Assembly: GCA_030040965.1 (NCBI GenBank)
Contig: JASHOT010000210.1
Coordinates: forward strand, 1-64,000
Direction of reading: 5' to 3'
From: Candidatus Sulfotelmatobacter sp.
GTDB taxonomy: Bacteria > Acidobacteriota > Terriglobia > Terriglobales > Acidobacteriaceae
Length of the DNA: 64,000 nucleotides
Shown here: piece by piece, positions 7,583-26,571 of the stretch
How positions within the stretch are numbered: position 1 is the stretch's first letter
Layout: each line of letters starts with the position of its first letter
Program-made: the position numbers and the translations under genes
The notes under the pieces: model-generated
The model's input: the letters and a program-made list of their open reading frames with translations, nothing else
What the model was told of the DNA's origin: nothing
Databases searched by the model: none

Positions 7583-7617
7583 AGTTCCGAACACAAAGAA
7601 ACTTTCTCGGAGGGGTA

Positions 7618-9690: not shown

Positions 9691-9705
9691 CGCGCTCGCT
9701 TGGAG

Positions 9706-11055
9706 TCAGATCGCTTTTAGGTCTTGAGCGGAGGCAGTGTCTGAGATCGTTTCAGAGGCCGCGTCCCAATATACCTTCCGGCCCGACCAGTACGACTCTG
9801 CGGCCATCATGCAGGCGACGGAATGCGCAAAGCCGTCGTTCACAGAAGCGTTCGGCTGTTGGCGCGAGCGCATGCAGTCGAACCAGTTCCCCATGTGTTC
9901 CAGCGACAGATCGTCAATTCCCATGGGTGGGAGCTTGGTTTCGCCGGGCAGAAGAATGAACTTCGACCCGCGTTTTGCGTCAATGTCGGCGTCATCCTCG
10001 TGCGTGCCCTTCTCTTCAATCAACTGATAGCGCGGGCTACCCTCGCCGCCGATGTTGATCAGCGTCGCTTTCTTGCCCATGTAGCGCGTGAAGCTTGGGG
10101 CGTCGTTGCCGAAACTGGTGGAGTAGCTGACCAGAAATCCTTTGCGATATTCCAGCAGCGTTTGAAATGTGTCGGCATTCTCGCGGCCGTCGTGCCAGGC
10201 AAAGACTCCGCCATGGGACACGGCCGACTTGGGAAAGCTGTCATTCATACACCAGTGCACCAGATCGATCGCATGGCTCATCCACTGATCTGGAATGCCG
10301 CTTGAAAACTCTTTGTACAGGCGGAACTCGAAATAGAGTTGGGGATCGAACGCCCGCGCGGGCTTGGTCAGCAGCCACTTATTCCAATCAGTTTCCTGTT
10401 GGCGGATTTGCTTCACCTCTTCGCGCCCGCGCCAGCGCGGCCCGTGATAGTTCCAGACGATCTCAACTTTGCTGATGTCTCCTAGAGCGCCGCTTTGTAT
10501 GACGTCGTGTGCCGCTCGAGGATGGGGCTCGCTTCGATGCTGCGTGCCCACCTGCACGACCGATTTGGATTGCAATACGGTGTCGCGCGCTGCTTTTGCC
10601 TCGTCTAGAACATTTCCCATCGGCTTTTCAATATAGACATCTTTCCCAGCCTCAACCGCCATTCTCAGGAGTGTGGAGTGGGAGTGATCGGGCGTGGAGA
10701 TCAGCACCCCGTCGACATCTTTCATGGCAAGCAATTCTTCTATCTGCGCGGCAGCGCGAGGAACTCGACCGTAATAGCCAGTGTTGGTCGCGACCGCTCT
10801 CTGGCGATTCACGGTCCACAAGTCGCAGACGGCGACCATCTCTACACTGTGACTCGATTTCAGTTTGGATGCGATCCTGTCAAGCTCGCGGCCACGATTG
10901 CCGATGCCGACATGTCCAAGGGAAATGCGGTCGTTGGCGCCGATAATTTTTTCATAAGACAGGGCAGTGCGGGGCAGGACCGCGGTCGCTGCGATGGCGG
11001 CAGCCGACGTGCCCAGAAATGCTCGACGATTCATGCGCTCCAAGGAGTCAGTCAT
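9706..11055 (-). CDS. Tat-exported Gfo/Idh/MocA family oxidoreductase
   Basis: A 449-aa protein. It begins with a twin-arginine signal (MNRRAFLGTSAAAIAATAVL), followed by a Rossmann fold (HVGIGNRGREL) and the family motif EKPMGN, whose Lys takes part in substrate and NAD(P) binding. The C-terminal half is the alpha/beta substrate domain. Such Tat-exported members are common in Acidobacteriota and Planctomycetota and probably act on sugars with a pre-bound cofactor. I chose the ATG at 11055, which has GGAG 8 bases upstream, over a TTG four codons earlier. It lies 35 bases downstream of the CRTAC1-type gene and is probably co-transcribed. Confidence 0.9.
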   Translation of the reverse strand: MTDSLERMNRRAFLGTSAAAIAATAVLPRTALSYEKIIGANDRISLGHVGIGNRGRELDRIASKLKSSHSVEMVAVCDLWTVNRQRAVATNTGYYGRVPRAAAQIEELLAMKDVDGVLISTPDHSHSTLLRMAVEAGKDVYIEKPMGNVLDEAKAARDTVLQSKSVVQVGTQHRSEPHPRAAHDVIQSGALGDISKVEIVWNYHGPRWRGREEVKQIRQQETDWNKWLLTKPARAFDPQLYFEFRLYKEFSSGIPDQWMSHAIDLVHWCMNDSFPKSAVSHGGVFAWHDGRENADTFQTLLEYRKGFLVSYSTSFGNDAPSFTRYMGKKATLINIGGEGSPRYQLIEEKGTHEDDADIDAKRGSKFILLPGETKLPPMGIDDLSLEHMGNWFDCMRSRQQPNASVNDGFAHSVACMMAAESYWSGRKVYWDAASETISDTASAQDLKAI

Positions 11056-11090
11056 GGTGCACTCCAATTCTTGATCACCTATAAATTCGA

Positions 11091-12845
11091 TTAGCGAGAA
11101 ACAGCTTCGGACGATGGCAGGGCTACTTTGTCCTTGATGCCCTGACCTTCAACGATCGTATAGATGAAATCCGCAGGCACGTTGCGCAGGGTCTCGATTT
11201 CGCCGTTCGGCCAACGCACGGTTACTTCGTCCATGTTCGTGTTCTTGCCCAGCCCAAAGTGCTGCCGCAGATCGTTCTGAGAAATGTAGCTCGAGCCACC
11301 TTTCACTTCGCTCAACTGCGTCACGCCACCGGCCTTCACAGTCACACGGGCACCGATGGCGAGCCGGTTGCTCTTTGTTCCCAGCAGACGAAACAGCGCG
11401 CGATGATTTCCATTCTGGCAATGATTGAGCAGAAGCGACGGCGGCTGACCAACGTTAAGCGTCACAACATCGACGCAGCCGTCGTTGTTAATGTCGCCGA
11501 ATGCCGCGCCCCGCCGCGATTGCAGGGGCATGTCGGAAAATCCCACCGACCCACCGACTTCCTCAAACGTTCCGTCATGCTTGTTGCGGAATAGCAGCAT
11601 CGGCTGCTTGTAGTGCGCCGCGTTGGGAATCGTATCGACCTGCGGATAGACATGCCCGTTGGCAACAAAAATGTCGGTCCAGCCCGAATTGTCGAAGTCC
11701 ACGAATCCTGTGCCCCACCCCACATACGGATGGCTCGGCTGCCCGATGCCCGCATGCCAGGTCACGTCGGCGAATCCATTGTCGCCATTATTGTGATAGA
11801 GCGTGTCGGACTGATCGACAAACTCGGTCACCATCAAATCGAGCCGGCCCCTGTGATCGTAATCGCCAAAATCGACGCCCATCGATCCCAGTTCCTGCCC
11901 GTCTCCGCTCAGGTCGGCGCCCAGCATGAGCCCCATTTCTTCGAACGTTCCATCATGCTTGTTGCGATAGAGATAATTTGGGCCCGCGTCGTTGGCGACG
12001 TATAAATCCGGCCAGCCATCGTTGTCGTAATCGCCCCACACCACGCCCATGCCGTAATAGTGCTTGGGATCGTCCACCCCGGCCTTCTTCGATACATCTT
12101 CAAACGTTCCATCACCGCGGTTGTGAAACAGAAAATCCGACTCGCCCGGCAATCCCCAGGGACCGCACTGCACCATCACGCCCCGAAAGCGGCAAAACTT
12201 TTCGTTGCTGCCGAGTTCGGGCAGTTTGTCCATATCGACGTGGACATAGCGCGAAACGAACAGATCGACGTTTCCGTCACGGTCGTAATCGCCCCACGCC
12301 GCTCCCAGACTCAGCCCGCCGACGGCGACCCCTGCCTTCTCGGTCACATCTTCAAACTTGCATCCGCCCAGATTGTGGTAAAGCACATTGCCGCCGTAGC
12401 TGGTGACATAAAGATCGGGCAGACCATCGTTGTCGTAGTCGGCAACCGCAACACCCATGCCCCAGCCAATGCGATTCAGCCCAGCTTGTTTGGTGATGTC
12501 AGTGAACTTGAGATCCGCGTCCTGATGGTAGAGCGTCACCAGCGGATCGCCGCCGTGCTGGCGATAACGGTCGACGGTCGATCCGTTGACCACGACGATG
12601 TCGAGTTTGCCGTCGTTGTCGCAATCGAACAGGCCGATGCCTCCGCTGACCGATTCAATGATGTAACGCTTGTCGGGAGAAGAAATATGCGGAACCGTCA
12701 GCCCGGCCTGCCGGGCGATGTCTTCAAAATGAGGCAGAGAAGATGGATTGCTGATTTGAGTCTTGGGCAAGGCTGATTTGAGAGGAGTGACTTGCGCAGA
12801 AGCCAGCGCTGCCGAGAAAAAAAGTAGGGAGAAGAGCCTGCGCAT
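11091..12845 (-). CDS. CRTAC1-family secreted protein (VCBS/FG-GAP repeats, ASPIC/UnbV domain)
   Basis: The 584-aa protein has a Sec signal peptide (cleavage after LASAQ) and a series of integrin-like calcium-binding repeats such as LFDCDNDGKLDIVVVNG, VADYDNDGLPDLYVTSYG, GDYDRDGNVDLFVSRY and GDYDNDGWPDLYVANDAG. It ends in an ASPIC/UnbV domain (SNRLAIGARVTVKAGG, then VTVRWPNGEIETLRNVP). The repeats form a beta-propeller with a Ca2+ site in the D-x-D-x-D/N-G loops. Family members are secreted and their substrate is unknown. It precedes the oxidoreductase gene in the same direction. Confidence 0.92.
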   Translation of the reverse strand: MRRLFSLLFFSAALASAQVTPLKSALPKTQISNPSSLPHFEDIARQAGLTVPHISSPDKRYIIESVSGGIGLFDCDNDGKLDIVVVNGSTVDRYRQHGGDPLVTLYHQDADLKFTDITKQAGLNRIGWGMGVAVADYDNDGLPDLYVTSYGGNVLYHNLGGCKFEDVTEKAGVAVGGLSLGAAWGDYDRDGNVDLFVSRYVHVDMDKLPELGSNEKFCRFRGVMVQCGPWGLPGESDFLFHNRGDGTFEDVSKKAGVDDPKHYYGMGVVWGDYDNDGWPDLYVANDAGPNYLYRNKHDGTFEEMGLMLGADLSGDGQELGSMGVDFGDYDHRGRLDLMVTEFVDQSDTLYHNNGDNGFADVTWHAGIGQPSHPYVGWGTGFVDFDNSGWTDIFVANGHVYPQVDTIPNAAHYKQPMLLFRNKHDGTFEEVGGSVGFSDMPLQSRRGAAFGDINNDGCVDVVTLNVGQPPSLLLNHCQNGNHRALFRLLGTKSNRLAIGARVTVKAGGVTQLSEVKGGSSYISQNDLRQHFGLGKNTNMDEVTVRWPNGEIETLRNVPADFIYTIVEGQGIKDKVALPSSEAVSR

Positions 12846-12975: not shown

Positions 12976-13506
12976 TTACTTTTCTTTGCTGGCTTTGCCG
13001 TCCATCACCATGGTCCAGTTTGTCCCGTCCGGCGACATTTCGAAGGTGAAAGTATAGGAGGTCGGCGAACCGATCTTCATCGTGAACTTGCCTTTCAACG
13101 TCTTGCCGCCCATCTTCTCGTCGCTCGTCCAGGTCCAGGTATCGCCGTTCACTTGTCCTCGCGAGTCGTCGAACTCGCCCCAGCTGTTGAACTCACGATA
13201 GGTGTAAGCCTTGTCGTCGGCGGAGTAGCCTAGCACCGATAGCCCGGTTCCATTGCCCATCGAACTCTGATAATTCGAGTGGCAGACGAGGAAGAAGTCT
13301 CCCTCCATCCATTCGCACTTTTCATTTTCGGTCATCTTGCCAGCCGGATTCATCGGCCCGGCTTTCATATCTCCCTCGAGAGTCCAGGTGCCGGCAAAGA
13401 TTGCAAGTTTTTGGTGCTCAGGGCCAGGCTTGGGCATATCCGTCTGGCAGAGTGCCGCGATGGTCAGTGCGGCACAGGCGGCAAGCAGGATCGCAGTTTT
13501 TTTCAT
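12976..13506 (-). CDS. DUF1579 family secreted protein
   Basis: A 176-aa exported protein: signal peptide MKKTAILLAACAALTIAALCQ, then a lipocalin-like DUF1579 domain with its usual opening (HQKLAIFAGTWTLEGDMK) and later YREFNSWGEFDDSRG. The family's function is unknown; the fold suggests binding of a small ligand. I chose the ATG at 13506 because it begins the signal peptide and has GAGG 5 bases upstream; the upstream frame to 13602 has no signal. It is monocistronic, with a divergent GloVer array beyond. Confidence 0.88.
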   Translation of the reverse strand: MKKTAILLAACAALTIAALCQTDMPKPGPEHQKLAIFAGTWTLEGDMKAGPMNPAGKMTENEKCEWMEGDFFLVCHSNYQSSMGNGTGLSVLGYSADDKAYTYREFNSWGEFDDSRGQVNGDTWTWTSDEKMGGKTLKGKFTMKIGSPTSYTFTFEMSPDGTNWTMVMDGKASKEK

Positions 13507-13996
13507 GTTGCCTCGTGACTGATGATATAGACGAATCCGATCGCGGATTGTGAGTCGCAGCGCGGTTGCGATTGCGGGCGCCATCTTAGCTTCGCGCCAC
13601 AAAGATCGTCAACCGCGGCGCTTCGCACATATGCAAGAATCTTCACTCCTATCAGTATTGATTTGGGGCGTGCAAAAAGATACTCACAATTGACAACCAA
13701 AATACGCTTCGAGAATAATGCCGTGGTTCGCCAAAGTCGACCCTCCTCCGCAAGTCTGAAGCCTGGCAGGTTTCGAGTTTATCCCGCAGACTTGCTCTGC
13801 CGTAGTCCGATCATTTCGCATGCGAAGTGATCTTCATCCGATCGCAGGATTGTAGCTGGCAAGCGAATTTAAGACTGGAACGATTCAGTTCACGACAACC
13901 GAGTAGACCTGAACGGGAGACTCCATTTCCAGATGTGTAGTTCCGGGTAACGTTAACCTTTGCGACGCGGCAGCATAGCCGCAGAAGGAGATTCTC
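13507..13996. other. divergent intergenic region upstream of the GloVer array
   Basis: About 490 bases with no supported gene. It must contain the promoter of the DUF1579 gene and, on the other side, the promoter for the first GloVer gene, whose AAGGAG ribosome site is at 13985-13990. No clear operator or hairpin was found. Confidence 0.4.
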
Positions 13997-15571
13997 ATGA
14001 AGAAAATTACGTTCGCGAAGATCGTTTGTCTTGCAGCCGCATTCTGCCTGGCAGCATCGATCGCACTAAACGCGCAAGCCTTTACCGAATTGCGCGCATT
14101 CAATGGGACGAATGGCTGGAGCGCATCATCACTCGTGCAAGGGTTCGACGGGAACTTCTACGGGACGACACAGTGGGGTGGGACCACCTTCCGCGAAAGC
14201 GGGCCCACCGACCCCGGCGATGGCACGGTTTTTGAGATCACGCCCGATGGCGGGTTGGCTACGCTCTACAATTTCTGTTCTCTGGTAAATTCCCAGGGCG
14301 AATGCGCCGACGGCCAACGCCCGAACGGCCTGATCTTGGCGGGCAACGGAAACTTTTATGGGACGACGTTTGCCGGCGGCAGCGGCGGCAACTCGGGATT
14401 TATTGCACCGGAAGGCACCGTCTTTGAGATCACCGCGACGGGGACGTTGACAACCCTCTACAGCTTTTGCACCCAGATCAGCGGTCCGGTTTGCCTCGAC
14501 GGCGCGTATCCCATGGCTGGGCTAGTGCAGGGCGTGAACGGGAGTTTTTACGGGACGACGCAGAGCGGAGGGAACGGAAGCACCGCCGGCGGCGGAGGGA
14601 CGATCTTTGAGATCACGGCGGCGGGGAAGCTGACCACGCTCTATAACTTCTGCTCGCAAACCAATTGCACGGACGGCGCCGAACCTTTGAATGGCCTGGT
14701 GCTGGCACACGATGGGAATTTCTACGGGACCACTACCGAGGGTGGGGCGAACGTGAACCAGTTCTGTCCGTCGGGCTGTGGAACGATCTTCAAAATCACG
14801 CCAGAAGGCGAACTGACCACGCTGCACAATTTTTGCGCGAAAAAGGGCTGCACAGATGGCGCCAACCCGGCGGGGGCGCTGATCGAAGGGTCCGATGGGG
14901 CATTCTATGGAACCGTACAAACGGGAGGAAACGCGAGTTCGTTGGGCGGTTTCGATTACCGGATAACCCCCGCGGGAAAATTCTCGGTCCTTTACGAATT
15001 CTGCGCCGAGTCGGGCTGCCCCGACGGCGTGGATCCGCAAGGCGGAGTGATCCAGGCTACGGATGGGAACTTCTACGGGGTAACCAACCAGGGCGGTGCC
15101 CACACCCTCGGCACGGCATACGAATTGACTCCGGCGGGCGATTTAACCACGCTCTACAGCTTCTGCTCGCAAAGCGGCTGCAGCGACGGTGAGTACATCA
15201 CTTCGGGCCTGATGCAAGCCACGAACGGAACGTTCTACGGCGCGTCCAGCGCGGGGGGGAAAGACTCCGACTGCTCCAATGACGGCACGCCGGGGTGCGG
15301 CACGATCTACAGCATCGCGAACGGACTGGGTCCATTCGTCGAATCGAATCCGGTGTTCGGCAAGGCCGGGCAGAACGTCCACATTCTCGGAAACAATCTG
15401 ACGGGCGCAAGCAGCGTGGCGTTCAACGGAACGGCGGCGACGACGTTCACTGTGGTTTCGGCGACGCAGATTCGAGTGACTGTGCCGACGGGGGCGACGA
15501 CAGGGACGATCGTTGTGACCACGCCGACAGGAACACTGAACAGCAATGTGGCGTTCCAGGTGTTGCCGTAA
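13997..15571 (+). CDS. GloVer repeat protein 1 (seven-unit, TIG-terminated)
   Basis: The 524-aa protein has a signal peptide (to about LNAQA) and seven repeats of the TIGR03803 Gloeo/Verruco type. Each unit has a DGNFYGTT-xx-GG stretch, then GTVFEITPxGxLTTLYNFC and a short loop ending in CxDG. A C-terminal IPT/TIG-like domain begins near GLGPFVESNPVFGKAG and ends NSNVAFQVLP. The cysteines in each FC-x4-C loop are well placed for a disulfide. Seven units suggest a seven-bladed beta-propeller; this is inference. Export is certain from the signal; the ligand and role are unknown. It is first of the array, preceded by an AAGGAG site. Confidence 0.92.
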   Translation: MKKITFAKIVCLAAAFCLAASIALNAQAFTELRAFNGTNGWSASSLVQGFDGNFYGTTQWGGTTFRESGPTDPGDGTVFEITPDGGLATLYNFCSLVNSQGECADGQRPNGLILAGNGNFYGTTFAGGSGGNSGFIAPEGTVFEITATGTLTTLYSFCTQISGPVCLDGAYPMAGLVQGVNGSFYGTTQSGGNGSTAGGGGTIFEITAAGKLTTLYNFCSQTNCTDGAEPLNGLVLAHDGNFYGTTTEGGANVNQFCPSGCGTIFKITPEGELTTLHNFCAKKGCTDGANPAGALIEGSDGAFYGTVQTGGNASSLGGFDYRITPAGKFSVLYEFCAESGCPDGVDPQGGVIQATDGNFYGVTNQGGAHTLGTAYELTPAGDLTTLYSFCSQSGCSDGEYITSGLMQATNGTFYGASSAGGKDSDCSNDGTPGCGTIYSIANGLGPFVESNPVFGKAGQNVHILGNNLTGASSVAFNGTAATTFTVVSATQIRVTVPTGATTGTIVVTTPTGTLNSNVAFQVLP

Positions 15572-15674
15572 GGCCTCGTGGGCCGCGAAAACAGGAAAGC
15601 GCGAGGCCTTTTCGGGCCTCCCCAAACCTTTCTGAACAGAAAGAATATTTTGGCCAAAGAAAGAGGAGCTTGCC

Positions 15675-17246
15675 ATGAAGAAGACTACACTTTTCACCTT
15701 TTGCCTCGTGGCTTTGCTGGGCACGGCGGCAGCGATCGCCGCGCAGGGGCAAAGCTACTCGGTGGTCGCGGATTTCAACCCGACGTACGGGGAGAATCCG
15801 GCGGGGCCGCTGGTGCAAGGAACCGATGGCAATTTGTACGGCGTCACGGAAACGGGCGGGAACACCAACAGTGTCTGCCCACAGCCGGAAAGCGGAACGA
15901 TCGGCGCCGGCTGCGGATCGGTGTACAAGGTGACGCCGGCGGGACAACTGACCGAACTGTATGAGTTCTGCTCGCAGACGGACTGCGTGGATGGCGCCTA
16001 TCCCATCGGCAGCCTCGTCTTGGGGACGAACGGGAACTTCTATGGAACGACTTTCATTGGCGGAGCCAGCAACCAGGGCACGGTATTCGAAATTACGCCT
16101 GCGGGCAAACTGACCACTCTTTATAGTTTCTGCTCGCTGGCGAATTGTACCGATGGCGCATTGCCGAACGGCGGATTGGTGGAAGGCGCGAACGGAAATT
16201 TCTACGGCACGACGGAGATCGGCGGAGGCGGAAAAGATACGAGCATCTGCGTGCCGTGGTATTACGACCCTCCGGTTAGCGGATGCGGGACGGTGTTTGA
16301 AATTACGTCCGCCGGGAAGTTGCAGACCCTCTACTCGTTCTGCTCGAAGGACAAGTGTACGGACGGAGACCTGCCATATACGGGGATGACGCTGGGATCT
16401 GACGGGATTTTCTACGGCACGACATATGGCGGGGGAAACACGATTGCCACCTCAATCTGTGTGACGCCGGGATGCGGAACGATCTTCCGCATGTCGCAAG
16501 CCGGAGAGCTTACGACGATGTACAGATTTTGCCTGCTGGCCAACGAAGCGAATCCGTGCCTGTCCGGTGTGAATCCCGAGACGACGCTGGTGCAGGCGAC
16601 GGACGGAAATCTGTATGGAACGGCAGGGAACATTTTTTCGATCACACCCACGGACAAGCTGACCGTTATTCGTCACGGACGCGGGATACCTGCTATCTCG
16701 GGGATGATTCAAGCCACGGACGGGAATTTTTATGCCACGCAATGGGGCGGGCTCGCCAAGTGCAGCGAAGGCAGCCCGTGCGGGGACATTTTAAAGTTCC
16801 AGAGTTCGGGCACCTACAACTTCCTCTACGACTTCTGCGAGCAGTCGGGTTGCGCCGATGGCGCGTTACCGGCCAGTGGACTGATGCAGGCTACGAACGG
16901 AATTCTTTATGGCACAACGCTGTTCGGAGGCACCGGGCTCGAGGAAGGCTGCAATGTGCATGGGAATTCGGGTTGCGGCGTGGTATTCAGCGAGGCGCTC
17001 GGCTTTAGCCCGTTTGTCGAGACGGTTTTCAATTTTGGCAGGGCCGGTGCGACCGTGGGCATCCTGGGCAATGGATTGACGGGCACCACAAGTGTGACGT
17101 TCAACGGAGTGGTGGCGACGTTCCATGTCGTATCCGACACCCACATCACGGCGACGGTGCCGGCGGGTGCGGCGAGTGGAGCGATTGAAGTGGTGACGCC
17201 GAGCGGAACGCTCTCGAGTAATGTGGCGTTTCATGTTTTGCCGTAA
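15675..17246 (+). CDS. GloVer repeat protein 2
   Basis: A 523-aa paralogue of the preceding gene with the same plan: signal peptide, seven repeats and the TIG-like end (GATVGILGNGLTGTTSVTFNG). Unit 5 is short (GNLYGTAGNIFSITPTDKL) and has lost the FC/C cysteine pair, so this copy has diverged most in the middle. The start has GAGGAGCTTGCC upstream. It lies 103 bases after the first gene, in the same direction. Confidence 0.92.
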   Translation: MKKTTLFTFCLVALLGTAAAIAAQGQSYSVVADFNPTYGENPAGPLVQGTDGNLYGVTETGGNTNSVCPQPESGTIGAGCGSVYKVTPAGQLTELYEFCSQTDCVDGAYPIGSLVLGTNGNFYGTTFIGGASNQGTVFEITPAGKLTTLYSFCSLANCTDGALPNGGLVEGANGNFYGTTEIGGGGKDTSICVPWYYDPPVSGCGTVFEITSAGKLQTLYSFCSKDKCTDGDLPYTGMTLGSDGIFYGTTYGGGNTIATSICVTPGCGTIFRMSQAGELTTMYRFCLLANEANPCLSGVNPETTLVQATDGNLYGTAGNIFSITPTDKLTVIRHGRGIPAISGMIQATDGNFYATQWGGLAKCSEGSPCGDILKFQSSGTYNFLYDFCEQSGCADGALPASGLMQATNGILYGTTLFGGTGLEEGCNVHGNSGCGVVFSEALGFSPFVETVFNFGRAGATVGILGNGLTGTTSVTFNGVVATFHVVSDTHITATVPAGAASGAIEVVTPSGTLSSNVAFHVLP

Positions 17247-17294
17247 GGTCTTTCACCGCAGAGGACACAGGTCCATTCAGAGGACGGAGGAACG

Positions 17295-18818
17295 ATGAGA
17301 TCAACTGGAAATGTGAAGAGTGCTTGCATCGTGGCTGCATTTTTCGTGGCGGTGACCGCGAGTTCTGCGGCGCAGACTTTCACGTATAAAGCCTTCAACG
17401 GAAAGAACGGTGGAAATCCGCAGGTACCGCCGGTGCAGGGTTTGAATGGGAATCTCTTTGGAACGACGGGCGGCGGGGGTGCGTACGGATATGGGACGGT
17501 CTATGAGCAGCAGGCCGACGGCAAGCTGACCACGCTCTACAGCTTCTGTTCGCAGGCGAACTGCGCCGACGGAGCTTATCCGTATGGATTGGTGCTGGCG
17601 GCGAATGGAAATTTCTATGGCACGACTGGAGGCGGAGGAGCGAATTCGAACTCCGCAATCTGCAAGACTGGTTGTGGAACGGTTTTTGAAATTACGCCCG
17701 CGGGCAAATTCACCTCACTTTACAGTTTTTGTGCTCAGGCGAGCTGCTCTGACGGCGCCGTGCCGTTTGGCACGCTGGCGCAAGGCGTGAACGGAAACTT
17801 CTATGGCACGACGTTTCAGGGCGGAAATTGCGGAGGATTATGCGGCACGATTTTCGAAATCACGGCTGCGGGCAAGTTGAGCACACTGTACAGCTTCTGT
17901 CCGGGGGAGACGACGTGCCCCGATGGCGACCAACCGGTGGCCGGACTGGTGCTCGGCACCGACGGAAATTTTTATGGAACCGCGGGCTTTGGCGGCCTCA
18001 ACTCGTATCAGGTTTCGAGCGGATATGGCACAGCGTTCAAAATCAGTCCGCAAGGCCACTACACAACGATGCACCAGTTTTGCTCGTTAAGTGAATGCGA
18101 GGATGGATGGTATCCGAAGGCGGGATTGGTTCAGGGCGCGGACGGGAATTTTTATGGAGTGACGTACGGCGGCGGCGCGTATGACCAGGGCGTGCTGTGG
18201 CGGTTCTCGCGCGATGGAGCGTTTGATGTGCTCTATACGTTTTGCCAGGGGACGACCGGTTGTGCAAATACGGACGGGAACGATCCGTCGTCGCCGTTGA
18301 TTCAGGCGCAGGACGGAAACTTTTACAGCACGACGTATCAGGGCGGTGCGAACACTGCCGGCGTCGTTTTCGAATACAGTCTGACCGGTGGAGTAAGCGT
18401 TCTCTACAGCTTCTGCAGCGTGGAACCGTACTGCAAAGATGGCGAGGGTCCGACTTCCGGGCTGATGGAAGCTACGGATGGCACGTTGTACGGGACTGTA
18501 GTGGATGGCGGGCCGGCGCATAACGGGTGCTTTTCGGGAGGATCGTGCGGGACGCTGTACTCGCTGGCGACGGGGCTGGGGCCGTTTGTCGAGTCCAATC
18601 CGGTTTTTGGGAAGGCGGGATACACGATCAATATTCTCGGAAACAATCTCACCGGAACAACGAGCGTAACGTTCAACGGAGTGGCGGCAGAATTCACGGT
18701 GGTGTCCGGCGCCTATATCAAGGCGACGGTGCCGAGCGGCGCCACGACGGGGACGATTTCAGTCGTGACGCCGACGGCAACACTGAACAGCAATGTAGCG
18801 TTTCAGGTGGTGGAGTAG
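17295..18818 (+). CDS. GloVer repeat protein 3
   Basis: The 507-aa paralogue has a signal peptide (TASSAAQ), seven units and a TIG-like domain. Unit 6 is followed by CSVEPYCKDG, a variant spacing of the loop cysteines. The start follows CGGAGGAACG. Only 48 bases separate it from gene 2, the tightest spacing in the array, so those two are probably co-transcribed. Its last 150 bases are unusually similar to the end of the fifth, frameshifted gene. Confidence 0.92.
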   Translation: MRSTGNVKSACIVAAFFVAVTASSAAQTFTYKAFNGKNGGNPQVPPVQGLNGNLFGTTGGGGAYGYGTVYEQQADGKLTTLYSFCSQANCADGAYPYGLVLAANGNFYGTTGGGGANSNSAICKTGCGTVFEITPAGKFTSLYSFCAQASCSDGAVPFGTLAQGVNGNFYGTTFQGGNCGGLCGTIFEITAAGKLSTLYSFCPGETTCPDGDQPVAGLVLGTDGNFYGTAGFGGLNSYQVSSGYGTAFKISPQGHYTTMHQFCSLSECEDGWYPKAGLVQGADGNFYGVTYGGGAYDQGVLWRFSRDGAFDVLYTFCQGTTGCANTDGNDPSSPLIQAQDGNFYSTTYQGGANTAGVVFEYSLTGGVSVLYSFCSVEPYCKDGEGPTSGLMEATDGTLYGTVVDGGPAHNGCFSGGSCGTLYSLATGLGPFVESNPVFGKAGYTINILGNNLTGTTSVTFNGVAAEFTVVSGAYIKATVPSGATTGTISVVTPTATLNSNVAFQVVE

Positions 18819-18953
18819 TTAGTCCGCGCCAAGCTGAAGCCGGGCCCCACCGCACCCGCGATCACTGCACGGTCTGGGGACGGCCGGGCTTGAGTGGGGC
18901 AAGACCGGCCGGGAACAAAATAGTTCGAAAAGGAAATCAGAAGAGGAGCAAAC

Positions 18954-20423
18954 ATGCAAGCGCATCGGTTGATCGGAGTCGTCCGGGTGATGGCTATATT
19001 CTGCGCTGCGACGGCGATTGGGGCGTCTGCGCAAACCTTCACCACGCTGGTGAATTTTCACGGGACCAATGGCCAACATCCCCAGGCCGCAATGGTGCAG
19101 GGCACCGACGGAAATCTCTATGGACTCACTTCCGGGGGCGGAGATGTAAGCCCGGGAGGCACGGTGTTCAGAATGACGCCCGCGGGTGAGTTAACGACGA
19201 TTTACTCTTTTTGCTCGCTGGCGAACTGCGCCGATGGCTCCGGCCCCGACCAATTGCTGCTGGCCGCCGACGGAAATTTCTACGGAACCACGGGAAGCGG
19301 CGGAGTTAACTGTCAGGATCTGGTCAATCCAGGTTGCGGCACGGTCTTCAAACTCACCCCCGCGGGCGCTCTGACCACGCTTTACAGTTTCTGCAGCCAG
19401 GCGAACTGCGCCGACGGCTGGGTTCCGAATTCGCTGGTGCAGGGTGCTGACGGAAATTTTTATGGGATCACGGGCGCGGGGGGAGTCGGCTACCCCAACG
19501 GTTTCGGCACGGTATTCAAGATCACGGCGGCCGGCGTGCTCACCATCCTTCACGACTTTTGCTCTGATGTCGAAAATGGAAACTGCGCAGACGGGAATCT
19601 CCCTCAGTCCTTAATGCTTGCCACCAATGGGAACTTCTACGGCATCGCTTCTGAGGGCGGGCCCGACGATTGCGGCGAGGTCTTCGAAATCACTCCCGCG
19701 GGCGCGCTGAGTATTGTCTATGGCTTCGAAGCCGGCGCGGGCTGCGGTGACGACAGCGGCCTGCTTCAGGCAAGCGATGGAAACTTCTACGGCACCAGCG
19801 GCGAAGGCGGAGCACACCGCAAGGGGGTGGTTTTCAAGCTGACGCCGTCAGGCGGGTTCTCGGTGCTTTATGCCTTCTGCGCGCTGGCGAACTGTGCGGA
19901 CGGGGAAAATCCAAATGCACTGGTGCAGGGCACCGATGGAAACTTCTACGGGACGACCCACGGAGTACTGGCGGGATCGCGGACAACCGATGGGACGGTT
20001 TTTCAGCTCACCCCAACCGGAACGCTGACGACGCTGCACACGTTCGACTTTACCGACGGCGCCTGGCCGGCCGCTCCGCTGGTGCAGGCCACAAATGGGA
20101 TCTTCTATGGGTCGACCACCTTTGGTGGCGCATCCAGCTGCGATGCGAGCTGCGGCACCCTCTTCAGCGAATCGATGGGCCTCACCCCGTTCGTGGAAGC
20201 CAGCCCGAATTTCGGCGCAGTCGGGCGCGTCGTGAACATCCTGGGAAACAACCTGAAGGGAACAACCAGCGTGACCTTTAACGGAGTATCGGCTACGTTT
20301 AAGGTCGTCTCGTCCAGCTATAGCAAGGCGGAAGTGCCGACGGGCGCGACGAGTGGAACGATTGAAGTGGTGACGCCGACGGGAACATTGGACAGCAATG
20401 TGGGGTTCCAAGTATTGCAATAA
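18954..20423 (+). CDS. GloVer repeat protein 4
   Basis: The 489-aa paralogue begins MQAHRLIGVVRVMAIFCAATAIGASAQ, a signal peptide, followed by seven units and a TIG-like end (NNLKGTTSVTFNGVSATFKVV). Units 4 and 6 lack the loop cysteines (YGFEAGAGCGDD, LHTFDFTDG). The start follows AGAGGAGCAAAC. The gap of 135 bases before it has no gene. Confidence 0.92.
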   Translation: MQAHRLIGVVRVMAIFCAATAIGASAQTFTTLVNFHGTNGQHPQAAMVQGTDGNLYGLTSGGGDVSPGGTVFRMTPAGELTTIYSFCSLANCADGSGPDQLLLAADGNFYGTTGSGGVNCQDLVNPGCGTVFKLTPAGALTTLYSFCSQANCADGWVPNSLVQGADGNFYGITGAGGVGYPNGFGTVFKITAAGVLTILHDFCSDVENGNCADGNLPQSLMLATNGNFYGIASEGGPDDCGEVFEITPAGALSIVYGFEAGAGCGDDSGLLQASDGNFYGTSGEGGAHRKGVVFKLTPSGGFSVLYAFCALANCADGENPNALVQGTDGNFYGTTHGVLAGSRTTDGTVFQLTPTGTLTTLHTFDFTDGAWPAAPLVQATNGIFYGSTTFGGASSCDASCGTLFSESMGLTPFVEASPNFGAVGRVVNILGNNLKGTTSVTFNGVSATFKVVSSSYSKAEVPTGATSGTIEVVTPTGTLDSNVGFQVLQ

Positions 20424-20516
20424 TCGCAGCGCGGAATGGGAAGTTGTTTTTGTGCCGGCGGCTTCCCGCGATTCTGCCAGTTCGATCTAACTGTGGCGAA
20501 AGCCCTTGAGGATTTC

Positions 20517-22013
20517 ATGATGATGCCTCGACTCGAAAAAGCTACTTTTTTGTTGACTGTGTTTTGCGTGGCATCTGCGCTTGCTGCGCGCGCTCAAACC
20601 GTCAGCACGATTTTGACTTTCACTTCTTCGACTGGTGGCAACGCTAACGCGCTTACCCAGGGCACCAACGGTAATTTCTATGGAACCGCTGAGCAGTACG
20701 GGAAAAACATGTCCGGCACAGCTTATGAAATGGCGCCTGCCGGAAATCTGACTGAGGTTTACAGCTTTTGCTCTCAGCCCAATTGCGCCGACGGAGGAGG
20801 GCCGGTGGCACCGCTACTGTTGGCCGGCGACGGAAACTTTTACGGAACCACGAATGGCGCAACCGTCGGCCTGCCTGGAACTGTCTTCAAGGTCGGCACC
20901 GGCGGCCAGCTGACGACGCTGTACAGTTTTTGTTCGCTGCCTAATTGCGCTGATGGGTCCAATTCCACGGTGTTGGTGGAAGGCCGTGACGGGAACCTGT
21001 ACGGCATAACCGCGGCGGGAGACACGGGCAACCACTGCAACAACGGTAATTCCGGCTGCGGGACGTTTTTCAAAATTACGAAAACAGGAGCGCTTACGAC
21101 GCTGCATAATTTTTGTACCTTCAAAACCTGTGCGGATGGCTCTTTCCCCGGCACCCTGATGCTGGCCACGGATGGCACTTTCTACGGAACTGCCTTGGAG
21201 GGCGGAACCAGCAGCGCTTGCGGAATTTTTGGCTGCGGCGTGCTTTTCCGTATGAAGGCGGAGGGAACGTTGCTGCTGGCGTATTCATTTAGCAGTGCGC
21301 TCGGATCTGAACCGAATGGTGTGATCGAGGGATCCGACGGAAATTTCTATGGCACGACGCTTATCGGTGGCGCCAATGATCAGGGCATCGTGTTCCAATA
21401 CACTTCGAGCGGAACCCTGAACGATTTGCACGATTTTTGCGGTACCTCCCGGCTGCGCCGACGGCGCCAACCCGGGGGCAGGGTTGGTGCAGGGCACCGA
21501 CGGCAACTTCTACGGCACAACAAATGAGCTCGGCACGGGAACGATTTGCCCCACCGAGGGCGCGCTTTGCGGAACGATCTTCAAAATCACTTCCACGGGT
21601 GGGTTCGCCAGCCTTTACAACTTCTGCTCTCTGCCGGGATGCAGCGATGGAGGAGTACCGCTTTCTCAGTTGATGCAGGGCACCGATGGCGCATTTTACG
21701 GAACGACTTCTGAGGGAGGCAGTACGAGCTGCTCTTTTGGTTGTGGCACTGTTTTCAAATTGTCTGTGGGATTGGCGTCATTCGTTCAATCCACTCCTGC
21801 TTTCGGCAAAGTGGGGTACACAATTTCATTCTGGGGAACAATCTGACGGGGACGTCGAGTGTGACCTTCAACGGTGTGGCGGCAGAGTTCACGGTTGTGT
21901 CCGGCAGTTATATCAAGGCGACGGTGCCGAGCGGCGCCACGACCGGGACGATTTCAGTCGTGACGCCGACGGGAACGCTGAACAGCAATGTGGCGTTTCA
22001 GGTTTTGCCGTAG
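20517..22013 (+). pseudogene. GloVer repeat gene 5, two frameshifts
   Basis: Reading from the ATG at 20517 (GAGGATTTC upstream) gives a signal peptide and five units, then the frame breaks near 21441-21453. There the FC-to-C loop has 13 bases instead of 12, so there is one extra base in a C-rich run. The next frame holds units 6 and 7 up to about 21830, where one A appears missing before TTCTGGGG, and the TIG-like end resumes in the original frame to 22013. Restoring both indels gives a normal seven-unit paralogue of about 499 aa. It could be a young pseudogene or two base-call errors; the sequence alone cannot decide. Confidence 0.8.
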
Positions 22014-22102
22014 GTTCGTTTAATCCAGCTAAGTCTCTCGGCGCCTTCGTGAAAACACAGGGTCGACTTTCATCCTAGCGTGCAGCTGGACGCGAGGAAA
22101 CC

Positions 22103-23647
22103 ATGAGGAAAATGGAATTCGCCAGGATCGCATCCATCGTCGCTTTGTTCTGCACTGCAACCGCGGTGTCGGCATCTGCGCAGACATTCACCTCAATTTT
22201 CAGCTTCAACAGCAGGGACGGCGCCGGACCCAACAGCCCGCTCGTCCAAGGGTTCAACGGCAATCTCTATCAGACAACCACCGGCGGCGGGCAATCCAGC
22301 AATTGCCACTTCCAGATGGGCTGCGGAACGGTTTTTGAGATCACGCCGAGCGGGAAGTTGACCACGGTTTACAACTTCTGTTCGCTGGCGAAATGTGCCG
22401 ACGGCGGCAGCCCCGTCGCACCGTTGTCGCTGGGGAGCGAAGGAAGCTTTTACGGCACGACCTTCTACGGGGGCGCTAATAACAACCGGCAATACTGCAA
22501 TTCCCTGGGCTGCGGAACGGTTTTTAACGTCAGTGCAGGCAAGCTGACTACGCTCTACAACTTCTGCTCGCAATCGGGATGCGCTGACGGCTGGTCTGCG
22601 GCCGGCGTCATCCAGGCGGCGAATGGGAACCTCTACGGCACAACCAGCCAGGGAGGGGCCAATAGCAGCCATACCTGCGAGGACGGTTGTGGCACGTTCT
22701 TTGAGTTAACGCCGACCGGCAAGTTCACCACGCTTTACAACTTTTGCGCGCAAACCAACTGCGCCGATGGCGCGCTTCCCGTATCAGGCGTGGTGCAGGG
22801 CACGAACGGCAATTTCTACGGAGTCACTGAGAGTAGTGGCGCGTACGGCGCAGGAACGGTATTCGAAATAACCGCCGCCGGAAAGTTGACAGTCCTCCAT
22901 AGCTTCTGTGCTCAATCCGTGGGTGGAAGCTGCGTCGATGGATCCTCTCCGGTCGGACCGCTCATCCAGGCGAACGATGGAAATTTCTACGGAACAACAT
23001 ACCAAGGCGGGACGGGATTAAACGACGGCACGGTCTTCGCCATTACTGCGACCGGTCAGCTGACCACTCTTTACAGCTTTTGTTCTGTGACAAACTGCGA
23101 CGACGGAGCCGAACCCGTTTCGAAACTGGTACAAGGAGCGGATGGAAACTTTTACGGTACAACCACCCTGGGCGGGCACACTTCGCATTGCCTTTATGGG
23201 TGCGGTACTGCGTTTGAACTTACACCCGGCGGAGAACTGACCACCCTTTACAACTTTTGCGCTGAATCGGGCTGCCCGGATGGCCTATACCCGATCGCAA
23301 TGGCGCAATCCACAAATGGGATCTTTTACGGCACGACCGGACAGGGCGGTCTTAATGCCTGCTTCGGCGAGAGCTGTGGGACCATCTTCAGTTTGTCCAC
23401 AGGGCTGGGTGCATTCGTTCAACCGGCCGCCAGCTTTGGCAAAGTGGAGGCGCTCGTTCACATTATGGGAAACAACCTGACAGGCGCCACGAGCGTCACC
23501 TTTAACGGTGTACCGGCCTATTTTGACGCCGTTTCGAGCACACTCATCCAGGCAAAAGTTCCAACCGGCGCAACAACCGGCCCAATCCAGGTTACGACGC
23601 CGTCGGGAACGCTGAACAGCAATATGGCGTTTCAGGTTTTGCCGTAG
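22103..23647 (+). CDS. GloVer repeat protein 6
   Basis: The 514-aa paralogue is intact: a signal peptide (to VSASAQ), seven units with nearly all FC/C loop pairs kept, and a TIG-like end (NNLTGATSVTFNGVPAYFDAV) closing in NSNMAFQVLP. The start follows GAGGAAACC. It is the last complete copy before the array decays into a truncated one. Confidence 0.92.
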   Translation: MRKMEFARIASIVALFCTATAVSASAQTFTSIFSFNSRDGAGPNSPLVQGFNGNLYQTTTGGGQSSNCHFQMGCGTVFEITPSGKLTTVYNFCSLAKCADGGSPVAPLSLGSEGSFYGTTFYGGANNNRQYCNSLGCGTVFNVSAGKLTTLYNFCSQSGCADGWSAAGVIQAANGNLYGTTSQGGANSSHTCEDGCGTFFELTPTGKFTTLYNFCAQTNCADGALPVSGVVQGTNGNFYGVTESSGAYGAGTVFEITAAGKLTVLHSFCAQSVGGSCVDGSSPVGPLIQANDGNFYGTTYQGGTGLNDGTVFAITATGQLTTLYSFCSVTNCDDGAEPVSKLVQGADGNFYGTTTLGGHTSHCLYGCGTAFELTPGGELTTLYNFCAESGCPDGLYPIAMAQSTNGIFYGTTGQGGLNACFGESCGTIFSLSTGLGAFVQPAASFGKVEALVHIMGNNLTGATSVTFNGVPAYFDAVSSTLIQAKVPTGATTGPIQVTTPSGTLNSNMAFQVLP

Positions 23648-23719
23648 GAGGATTATCGTAGAAGCGCAATGTGTATTGGGCCCAGGTTCGCACTTTGCCT
23701 TCAGAATGTGGGGACCACT

Positions 23720-24056
23720 ATGAAAAAGACCGGATTGGTAAGGTCGGTTGTCGTTGTGTTCGCCTCTTGCGTGGCGGCGGCTTCCGCGCAGGCGCAAACA
23801 TACACGGCACTAGCCAGCTGGCAGCGATGCGCGAAGCGGACAACTTGTCCAAGGGCCGAACGGCGACTTTTATGGGGTCACGGAGTTCACCGGAGACGGG
23901 AGCTTTTGTAATCCCAGCGGCAGATGCGGCATGGTCTTCCAGGTCACACCGGAAGGAGCGTTCAGCACGCTCTACAACTTCTGCTCGCAGGCCAACTGTG
24001 CCGATGGGTCCGATCCGCAAGGTAGCCTTCTGGTGGTGAATGGCAATCTCTGCTGA
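23720..24056 (+). pseudogene. GloVer repeat gene 7, truncated and frameshifted
   Basis: The ATG at 23720 opens a signal peptide (MKKTGLVRSVVVVFASCVAA, cleavage near AQAQ). Two single-base losses follow, near 23818 and 23853. A second frame then gives one good unit (GDFYGVTEFTGDGSF, then MVFQVTPEGAFSTLYNFC) and stops at NGNLC-TGA, where paralogues continue NGNLYGTT. Six units and the TIG-like end are gone. The truncation abuts another broken gene on the opposite strand, which points to a deletion joining the two. Confidence 0.75.
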
Positions 24057-24192
24057 TGGCCGTCTTTGAAGGTGATGACCAGCGTTTTGGGCCCTATTGG
24101 AGCTTGTTCTGCCTCTTGTGCATAGGCAGAAGCGGCGCAGGCGGCGGCAATCAGGATTCCAGAGTTCAGACGGTCTTGATCAACTTAGGAAT
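24057..24192 (-). pseudogene. 5' remnant of a secreted-protein gene
   Basis: Read on the minus strand, a signal-peptide-like stretch (LNSGILIAAACAASAYAQ) is followed by LVITFKDGHQQRL, a beginning I associate with short secreted proteins of unknown function in Acidobacteriota. Upstream, the initiation region has AAAGGAG but an ATT where ATG is expected, and the frame shifts by one base before the signal peptide. The 3' end is missing where it meets the truncated GloVer gene. No function remains. Confidence 0.5.
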
Positions 24193-24281
24193 GGCGTTCT
24201 CCTTTCGGGACAGTCGATGCGAGCCTGATGATTCCAGTTGCACTTCGTCGTGGCCAAACGAGCTCCAGAAGAGCTTCTATG

Positions 24282-24749
24282 TTATGCCGCGGATGACTGC
24301 TTTAAATAAACCAACACTTCTTCGGCGTGGCCGTCTGGATTGACCTTCTGGAAAATGTGCTCAATTCTGCCGTCCGGCCCAATGACAAAGGTCGTCCGCG
24401 CTATACCCCATACTTTCTTACCGTACATGTTCTTTTCTTTCATCACGCCAAACATCCCGGCCACTTTCTTTTCGGCATCGGCGAGCAGAGTAAAGGGCAA
24501 CTTTTCCTTTTCCTGAAATTTCTTTTGGGCTGCTGGGGTATCGGCGGAGATGCCAAGCAGCACGGCGCCCGTCTTTTGAATCTTTCTATATGTATCGCGG
24601 AACCCGCGAGCCTCAACCGTTCAACCGGGAGTATTTGCCTTCGGGTAGAAAAACAAAATGACCGTCTTACCGCGAAAGTCCTTTAATCCGACTTCTTTGC
24701 CGTTCTCATCCTGCAAAGTGAACTCGGGAGCTTTATCATGGATATTCAT
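24282..24749 (-). CDS. PrxQ/Bcp peroxiredoxin with in-frame UGA at the catalytic cysteine (probable selenoprotein)
   Basis: Thiol peroxidase of the AhpC/TSA, Bcp/PrxQ branch, reducing H2O2 and organic peroxides in the cytoplasm. The frame from ATG 24749 (GGAG about 9 bases upstream) reads MNIHDKAPEFTLQDENGKEV ... FFYPKANTPG, then TGA at 24621-24623 as codon 43, then TVEARGFRDTYRKI and on to ...LVYLKQSSAA, 155 residues, the normal Bcp length. The TGA replaces exactly the peroxidatic Cys of TPGCT; no other stop or shift is present. A 6-bp hairpin with a GUU loop starts 11 bases after the TGA, as selenocysteine insertion requires. The usual Bcp resolving Cys, five residues on, is Arg. The alternative is a nonsense mutation; the hairpin and intact downstream frame argue against it. 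Confidence 0.85.
24595..24609 (-). promoter_or_regulatory. candidate bacterial SECIS hairpin
   Basis: On the coding strand UCGCGG-GUU-CCGCGA forms six consecutive pairs with a three-base loop whose first base is G. The loop starts 17 bases after the UGA codon. Known bacterial SECIS elements have a small loop with a G among the first two bases, about 16-37 bases after UGA. The fit is direct; activity needs SelB in the genome. Confidence 0.65.
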
Positions 24750-24768
24750 GGGGATCTCTCCAGGCCAA

Positions 24769-26571
24769 ATGCAACACGATGATGGCGAGCGGACGACTTC
24801 TGAGCAGCAGGAATTATACAGGCGCACGCTCCCCGGAAATCCATGCCGCCAGCAAAGTAAGTTCGGGCGGATTGTCTATGCGTGGTTTTTCGGCGTGGCC
24901 TTGCCTGGCCTCCTCTTGTTCGGAGTTCTTTCTGTCCAGACCGCCCTTGCGCAGGACCCAACCCCCCAAATCACGGTTGAGCGCAAAAGCCAGCGCAAGA
25001 CAGATAACGGGCCGCGCGCGGTAGCCGTGCTGCGGCTCGACGCGAAGGGAAAGGCCTCGCTCGTCCCAATTGCAATTCTGATCAATGGCAAGTTTTGGGA
25101 TGCAAGCTCCTACAAGGCCGACCCCGTCCCGATGGCCCTTGAGACCGGGACCGTCTATGAAGCCGAACGAAGCGGAAATTCTCTAGGATTATTCACCGTT
25201 GGCAGCGCCTTGCACAGCAATGCAGTCAACGTGGCGAATCCGTGGCTGGGAACGGGAAGCTGGGTTCCTGGAGGGGCGGATACGACGAAAGCGCCGATGA
25301 AGGCCAACAACGTACCGGTCGGAATGGATACGAGCGATCAACCTCCGCGCCTCACGAAGAATCCAGCCTCTCCGACACCGGCGCCGCCAGCGTCTGCCCC
25401 TTCAACTGCCTCACCCGCTTCGCCACCAGCATCGTCAGATCCCGATTCTCCGCCGCGGCTTAATCGACCGGCTTCGACAACGACTCCGGATTCGTCATCA
25501 CCGGCCGGGTCATCACAGACTGGAGCAGGACAGGCTGGGTCATCGCAGGCTGGCTCTGCGCAATCCGGATCGGCGCAACCGGGATCTGGTCAATCTGGTT
25601 CCACTCAAACAGGTTCGACTCAGGCAGGATCGCAGACGGGTTCGTCTCAACCAGCCAGTAAGCCGGGTTCGTCCGCGCCTTCCGGATCGAGTGCGCCCGA
25701 TACCGGATCGAGTACTCAAAAGTCCAGCAACCCCGCATCAGACAGCAAAACTCCCCCGATAAAACCAGTACAAGAACCCGCCTCGGACAGCGGCGTCAAC
25801 GAAGCCACCAGACCGAGACTGCGCCGCGGAAGGCCAGCGACCGCACTGCCCGACGACGAAGACATACCCGGATATAGCAAGGTCGGCGCAAAACCCTCGG
25901 CCACAGCGGGAAAGGTTGCGACCGCTGCGGATGAGAGTGCAATCCAGTCCATCCCCGCCATTTCGGACGCAAAGGGACCGCAGCCGCGTTCTTTCAATTT
26001 CGAGTGGCTCAAGGACGAAGAAGGGGAAAAGAAGCAGCAGATGATTGCATTGGCCAAGGAACAGGTGCGCGCCTATCTCGACGCGCAGGCCAAATCCAGA
26101 ATTGCGCTGGTCAACGGGCCGAAGACGGCAAGCGCGTCAAGCTCTCGTCATGCGTCGGCCAAAGCGGGAGCGAAATCGCCGGAACCGATTCTCGAAAATG
26201 TTCAGATGATCGCTTACGATCTGTGGAATTCGAACCAGCCGATTATCGTTTTCAGCGCCCAGGCTCATCTTCCGCCGCCAGCGGCGGGAACTGCTCATTC
26301 GGAGACTGATGCCGAATTGCGATATTCGGTGACCCTGGTCGCGTTTCCCGACATCTACAACAACCTGCATAAGCTGTATGTCGGGGTGACCGACAAGTAT
26401 CACCTGGATCTGACGCCGCGGCTTGATCTGGTCGACGCCCTGGACGCCGACGGGGACGGTCTGGGCGAGCTGCTTTTCAGAGAAACTTCGGATGCCGGCA
26501 CGGGCTGGGCGATTTATCGCGCCACCGGCGACAAGCTCTGGAAGATGTTTGACAGCCTGAACCCGGAGTAA
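24769..26571 (+). CDS. secreted or membrane-anchored protein with Ser/Gly/Gln-rich linker
   Basis: About 600 aa. A hydrophobic segment (YAWFFGVALPGLLLFGVL, then QTALAQ) exports it. Next is a small folded domain with ILINGKFWDASSYKADPVPM, then a Pro-rich stretch and a low-complexity linker (25460-25740) of repeated GS/GSQ units. A C-terminal domain has VTLVAFPDIYNNLHKLYVGV and DALDADGDGLGELLF, the latter like a Ca2+-binding or FG-GAP loop. I recognise no named family. The start is uncertain; the ATG at 24769 lies in the divergent promoter region of the peroxiredoxin gene, and another in-frame ATG is at 24748. Confidence 0.75.
   Translation: MQHDDGERTTSEQQELYRRTLPGNPCRQQSKFGRIVYAWFFGVALPGLLLFGVLSVQTALAQDPTPQITVERKSQRKTDNGPRAVAVLRLDAKGKASLVPIAILINGKFWDASSYKADPVPMALETGTVYEAERSGNSLGLFTVGSALHSNAVNVANPWLGTGSWVPGGADTTKAPMKANNVPVGMDTSDQPPRLTKNPASPTPAPPASAPSTASPASPPASSDPDSPPRLNRPASTTTPDSSSPAGSSQTGAGQAGSSQAGSAQSGSAQPGSGQSGSTQTGSTQAGSQTGSSQPASKPGSSAPSGSSAPDTGSSTQKSSNPASDSKTPPIKPVQEPASDSGVNEATRPRLRRGRPATALPDDEDIPGYSKVGAKPSATAGKVATAADESAIQSIPAISDAKGPQPRSFNFEWLKDEEGEKKQQMIALAKEQVRAYLDAQAKSRIALVNGPKTASASSSRHASAKAGAKSPEPILENVQMIAYDLWNSNQPIIVFSAQAHLPPPAAGTAHSETDAELRYSVTLVAFPDIYNNLHKLYVGVTDKYHLDLTPRLDLVDALDADGDGLGELLFRETSDAGTGWAIYRATGDKLWKMFDSLNPE

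Follow-up and report, generated by a model that had tools for sequence, protein, structure and literature searches.

Proteins with the GloVer repeat are catalogued in NCBIfam as TIGR03803 (Gloeo_Verruco, 'choice-of-anchor tandem repeat GloVer-containing protein'), a known but uncharacterised family, and our literature search returned no paper describing it. The name implies interchangeable C-terminal anchors, and we take its description to mean that a sorting anchor such as PEP-CTERM is to be expected at the C-terminus, outside the TIGR03803 profile itself. The closest described systems are beta-propellers of other families. In galactose oxidase and the other AA5 oxidases an Ig-like domain comes after the propeller, a domain order like that of a GloVer protein with its TIG domain. 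However, no active-site residues are conserved in GloVer and identity is about 12%. SMP-30-type propellers resemble GloVer in predicted structure, but GloVer is without their conserved metal-site residues, while the ScyD/ScyE family (NF033206) is matched weakly by sequence (E 3e-9 in the second gene of the array described here), and at 37 bits the match to ScyE stays under its cut-off of 80. The WD40 propellers PkwA and WRAP (PMC6805158) are alike in having four-stranded blades and a last blade completed by an N-terminal strand, i.e., the velcro closure by a split blade described for propellers in the same paper, and WRAP has 14 blades. No sequence relation between the WD40 propellers and GloVer was found, and GloVer differs from them by its disulfide-bearing loops and its TIG end.

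Here we analysed a window of 64,000 nucleotides from Candidatus Sulfotelmatobacter sp. (contig JASHOT010000210.1), in which GloVer genes form an array on the plus strand at 13997-24056. The array is a good example of the family, and its five intact proteins carry the TIGR03803 repeat far over the curated cut-off of 44 bits (227-327 bits, E 7e-69 to 5e-100). Instead of an interchangeable anchor, the array proteins end in a TIG domain (...NSNVAFQVLP) with no anchor after it, and searches with Pfam and NCBIfam found no C-terminal sorting anchor in them.

Layout and history of the array

A first-pass annotation of the sequence had counted seven genes, each intact copy with seven repeats and a TIG-like end. 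We resolve these as five intact genes, one copy with two frameshifts and, as the seventh, a truncated remnant. The first gene, g1 (13997..15571), encodes 524 aa with a signal peptide, seven units and a TIG-like end, and the other intact genes are g2 (15675..17246, 523 aa, TIG domain 17010-17234), g3 (17295..18818, 507 aa, TIG domain 18597-18806), g4 (18954..20423, 489 aa, TIG domain 20199-20375) and g6 (22103..23647, 514 aa), which was chosen for structure prediction. The frameshifted copy g5 (20517..22013) probably starts at 20517 and is broken near 21450 and 21828, its successive frames holding five units, then two units, then the TIG domain. What is left of g7 (23720..24056), which is also frameshifted, is a signal peptide and the N-terminal strand, followed by a single unit and the beginning of another. 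The TIG domain (PF01833) lies above the gathering cut-off in g2, g3, g4 and g6, whereas the C-terminus of g1 falls below the Pfam threshold, yet aligns with these four across the same stretch. Pfam matches to SR1P were below cut-off and were discarded, and none of the PHROGs matched.

Gaps between the array genes measure about 50-135 bases, and a sigma-70-like site upstream of g1 (TTGACA-18-AATAAT, 13690..13719, plus strand) is a candidate promoter. It is the only such site on the plus strand of 13500-24800, a number not above chance, and together with the gaps it fits a single transcription unit, being compatible with one rather than proof of it. Rfam gave no match within 13000-25500. The array is flanked by a DUF1579 gene on the left (12976-13602, minus strand) and a peroxiredoxin gene on the right (24282-24749, minus strand). 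Three more repeat or propeller-type proteins are encoded left of the array within 6365-12845, i.e., a lactonase-like propeller (6365-7582), a Big_2/LVIVD protein (7618-9690) and an FG-GAP/ASPIC-UnbV protein (11091-12845).

The peroxiredoxin, which is of Bcp type, has an in-frame TGA (24621-24623) exactly at the peroxidatic cysteine (TPG-U-TVEARGFRD). This TGA is common to twelve congeners, in which the second cysteine is always replaced by arginine, while twelve others have TGC and keep the second cysteine. The genome encodes SelA, SelB and tRNA-Sec, and a 6-bp hairpin lies 3' of the TGA. The product is very probably a selenocysteine peroxiredoxin, truncated by ordinary annotation; such peroxiredoxins are a known kind (PMC1794560). 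Next to it, a 637-aa protein of no known family (window 24658-26571) occurs in 40 of 45 genomes of the genus, and the peroxiredoxin gene adjoins its gene wherever read. As listed, its ORF overlaps the peroxiredoxin gene antisense at the start, so the true start probably lies further downstream.

The array copies are about 50% identical, their codons agree at about 42% of shared residues and synonymous sites are saturated, and this low identity and codon agreement argue that the duplication is old. Units at the same blade position are barely more similar (0.49) than other units (0.46), and blade homology between the copies is nearly erased. In other species of the genus, the proteins that match g1 best (51-57%) resemble it no more closely than the other array copies do, and in a gene tree g1-g5 group weakly (SH-aLRT 89), with g6 placed elsewhere, also weakly. 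The TIG ends of g3 and g5 (18633-18818 and 21828-22013) are 93% identical with 71% codon agreement, against 47% identity in their propellers, which is a sign of a recombination or conversion tract.

Tandem duplication had been taken to point to a role in which variation is useful. A contingency or antigenic-variation locus, in which tandem copies recombine or phase-vary to alter a surface protein, could draw on the tandem copies themselves, on the dead ones among them (g5 and g7, two of the seven) and on the recombination sign between g3 and g5. However, that recombination is seen solely in the conserved TIG end, the copies are old, no simple tandem repeats occur in the array and the g5 frameshifts lie outside long homopolymers. 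Inverted repeats of 60 bases or more were also not found. Moreover, whole-protein dN/dS is 0.17-0.24 in four homologue pairs at 66-69% identity, none of them from the array itself, indicating that the closest homologues are under purifying selection. We consider a contingency locus very improbable, and the step from tandem duplication to useful variation is not supported. By our reading, the array goes back to old local duplication, has since been maintained by birth and death, and has recombined in its TIG ends.

Repeat count and predicted fold

The seven repeats of each intact copy had first been counted by eye and interpreted as a closed seven-bladed beta-propeller. An HMM built from the array's own units finds seven units, six of them complete, in all five intact copies, so the count stayed constant when scored. 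In every one of them the seventh unit breaks off at an identical point, about 60% of the way through and after strand c, and the strand missing from it is the N-terminal 'AQTFTTLxxF'.

A retrained unit profile was run on 132 closed GloVer ORFs from the same genome and from public loci, and found exactly seven a/b strand pairs in 119, a count that overstates independence as the units are related to each other. A half unit stands at the end in 117 of the 119 seven-unit ORFs, and the complementary N-terminal half is detectable in 61. Several of the 13 exceptions, g5 included, are too short for a whole propeller, and in the remaining ones a unit has been lost or was missed by the profile. Elsewhere in the phylum, several genomes with few GloVer matches give 7 or 14, and several single-gene genomes give 7. 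The count of seven is a rule of the whole family, and not the property of this array that it had been taken for. Relatives of double length contain 14 units and so recall WRAP. In three of them (L172, L174 and L175) the units form one uninterrupted series that closes with a single half unit, and in a fourth (L179) they are arranged as 7+7 around a linker. These are probably two rings in tandem, although one 14-bladed ring is possible.

A fixed integer count combined with a circularly permuted unit implies a closed ring with velcro closure, and structure prediction gave the same picture. AlphaFold2, run on g6 with 58 aligned homologues (pLDDT 92.3, pTM 0.90), predicts four-stranded blades in seven groups followed by a TIG sandwich, with the first strand taking the place of the fourth strand that the last blade is short of. 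This N-terminal velcro strand (residues 28-34, 22184..22204), which would complete blade 7, is marked both by the strands of the model and by the N-terminal half units in homologues. It is preceded by the signal peptide (residues 1-27, 22103..22183), assigned from the sequence and a predicted helix at residues 2-23, and the TIG/E-set domain (residues 438-514, 23414..23644) is supported by Pfam and the model alike. A single-sequence AlphaFold2 prediction of g4 reached a pLDDT of 49 and was discarded. Searched against the PDB with Foldseek, the g6 model has its best matches in beta-propellers; galactose oxidases rank near the top, DFPase and SMP-30 lactonases lower, and TM-scores to solved propellers are only about 0.3-0.6. 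By sequence, the PDB gave no match for the one protein searched, profile searches gave only weak matches (to a TIG protein and a gluconolactonase), and no PDB relative of the GloVer propeller was found in this way.

An open repeat solenoid could in principle also be built from tandem repeats of about 55 residues, but nothing further was found in favour of one. The fixed count of 7 or 14, the split unit, the AlphaFold2 model, in which no open geometry occurred, and the Foldseek matches all argue against a solenoid, which we regard as extremely improbable. Closure of the ring in the model is read from strand order, model confidence and Foldseek and, taken together with the split seventh unit and the counts, makes the closed seven-bladed propeller the very probable fold of GloVer, as had been proposed at first.

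The same predicted fold is found in a Pithovirus LCPAC304 protein (BFVD A0A481Z910; TM 0.81 by target length, 22% identity to g6), and GloVer relatives are encoded on five IMG/VR contigs (loci L189-L193).

Cysteines, loop face and putative function

For 625 units, the cysteines of the b-c loop and of the d-a loop were counted separately and compared with the expectation from independent placement; as the units are related, these numbers too overstate independence. The b-c loop has zero, one or two cysteines in 423, 22 and 180 units (expected 339, 208 and 64) and the d-a loop in 221, 18 and 382 units (expected 180, 222 and 137); by our tally each loop holds none or two in 603 of the 625. The sum over both loops is even in 614 units, and a single b-c cysteine is usually accompanied by a single d-a cysteine in the same blade (15 cases with one in both loops, against 0.6 expected). 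The 'FC-x4-C' pattern noted initially is true of most units, with longer spacing in some. This parity points to disulfides and, independently of any model, to b-c and d-a loops that are adjacent on one face. Propeller topology demands just this placement of the two loops, side by side on one face.

In the five intact array proteins the cysteine total is even in every unit and all mature cysteines pair, the 16, 20, 18, 14 and 22 cysteines of g1, g2, g3, g4 and g6 giving 8, 10, 9, 7 and 11 predicted disulfides, respectively. Single cysteines occur in these proteins solely in blade 4 of g4, whose two loops carry one apiece, within PDDCGE and GAGCGD, and one of the 7 predicted disulfides of g4 joins them. 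Unit 5 of g2 is shortened and without cysteines. From the signal peptides and the cysteine parity we infer export, and it is highly likely that the real protein is exported and carries disulfides, which lends strong support to the original suggestion that these form outside the cytoplasm.

The mature protein would comprise, once the signal peptide is removed, a closed seven-bladed ring and then a TIG (E-set) domain without further anchor. Each blade would be built from strands a (GLVQATDG), b (NFYGTT), c (GTVFKITP) and d (LTTLYSF), and the ring would be shut by velcro, the first strand of the mature protein serving as strand d of blade 7. The long b-c and d-a loops, variable in sequence and length, would lie on one face and short turns on the opposite one, and disulfides would brace the loops, mostly inside a single loop and in rare cases across both loops of one blade.

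Seven positions of the unit have an entropy above 3.3 bits, and all of them are in the b-c and d-a loops. The chief site of length change, in the b-c loop, affects 37% of units and amounts to 5.4 residues on average. Tyrosine makes up 12.5% of residues at the variable loop positions against 4.1% elsewhere, a modest enrichment. In the four homologue pairs, loop dN is 3.5-5.8 times strand dN, and dN/dS in the loops remains below 0.5; the loops therefore seem at most relaxed or mildly diversifying, short of demonstrated positive selection.

The propeller shape is typical of proteins that bind other molecules, and the concentration of variation on one face makes a binding role plausible. With moderate confidence we favour a secreted ligand-binding propeller, whose loop face would be the putative binding surface outside the cytoplasm and whose TIG domain would act as a spacer or attachment module. 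That the ligand is a glycan is a guess from the Tyr/Asn/Ser/Gly make-up of the loop face. Genes next to GloVer genes in public loci reveal no common functional context, as the most frequent family accounts for at most 4 of 88 neighbours. A secreted structural or matrix protein would also agree with the high copy number, the many disulfide cross-links, the TIG-like ends and the lack of a conserved site; in that case the propellers would serve in the envelope or the extracellular matrix as stable modules or as scaffolds between proteins, with no specific ligand. However, variation concentrated on one face exceeds what a pure scaffold needs, and we judge this explanation possible but somewhat unlikely.

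A secreted enzyme, e.g., a propeller hydrolase, lactonase, lyase or oxidase of SMP-30/DFPase or galactose-oxidase type, is suggested by the Foldseek matches and the weak profile match to ScyD/ScyE. Identity to the matched enzymes is only 10-15%, however, and the 58 homologues have no blade-specific conserved residue of catalytic type, their conserved residues being those of the repeat consensus. At no blade position does H, R, E or W reach 60% conservation among the 58 rows, K does so once, with 60%, and the metal- or copper-site residues of SMP-30/DFPase and AA5 enzymes are not conserved. An enzymatic role is, in our view, distinctly improbable.

Distribution and meaning of the family

Of 36 congeners in the first draw, 33 have GloVer genes, whereas 14 control genomes have none, and this presence in congeners and absence in controls argues that the array is not a product of chance. 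Across the phylum, 30 of 297 genomes carry the family. In addition to the array, the genome itself (437 contigs) contains about 28 GloVer genes or gene fragments. Among public loci, those that resemble the array most are from MAGs of Acidobacteriota, many of them labelled Candidatus Sulfotelmatobacter or Terriglobia. GloVer runs in other genomes comprise two to four genes, and the six recognisable ORFs in a row of this array are the longest run seen. The right flank, i.e., the genes of the peroxiredoxin and of the 637-aa protein, recurs in 20 congeners; no GloVer gene lies beside it in the stretches read from them (two of which were short), so the position of the array is not common to congeners.

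With this locus the GloVer family gains a predicted fold, a rule for how the ring closes, a means of predicting disulfides from the cysteine pattern and a face that is a candidate for binding, and its expansion marks a lineage-specific investment in abundant soil bacteria that are hard to grow. More tentatively, and as a rather unlikely reading in its full form, GloVer may be a lineage-expanded repertoire of secreted recognition proteins, in which a fixed frame presents disulfide-locked, Tyr-rich variable loops on one face. If true, a single genome would hold about thirty different faces, like a binder library for soil glycans or the envelopes of neighbours.
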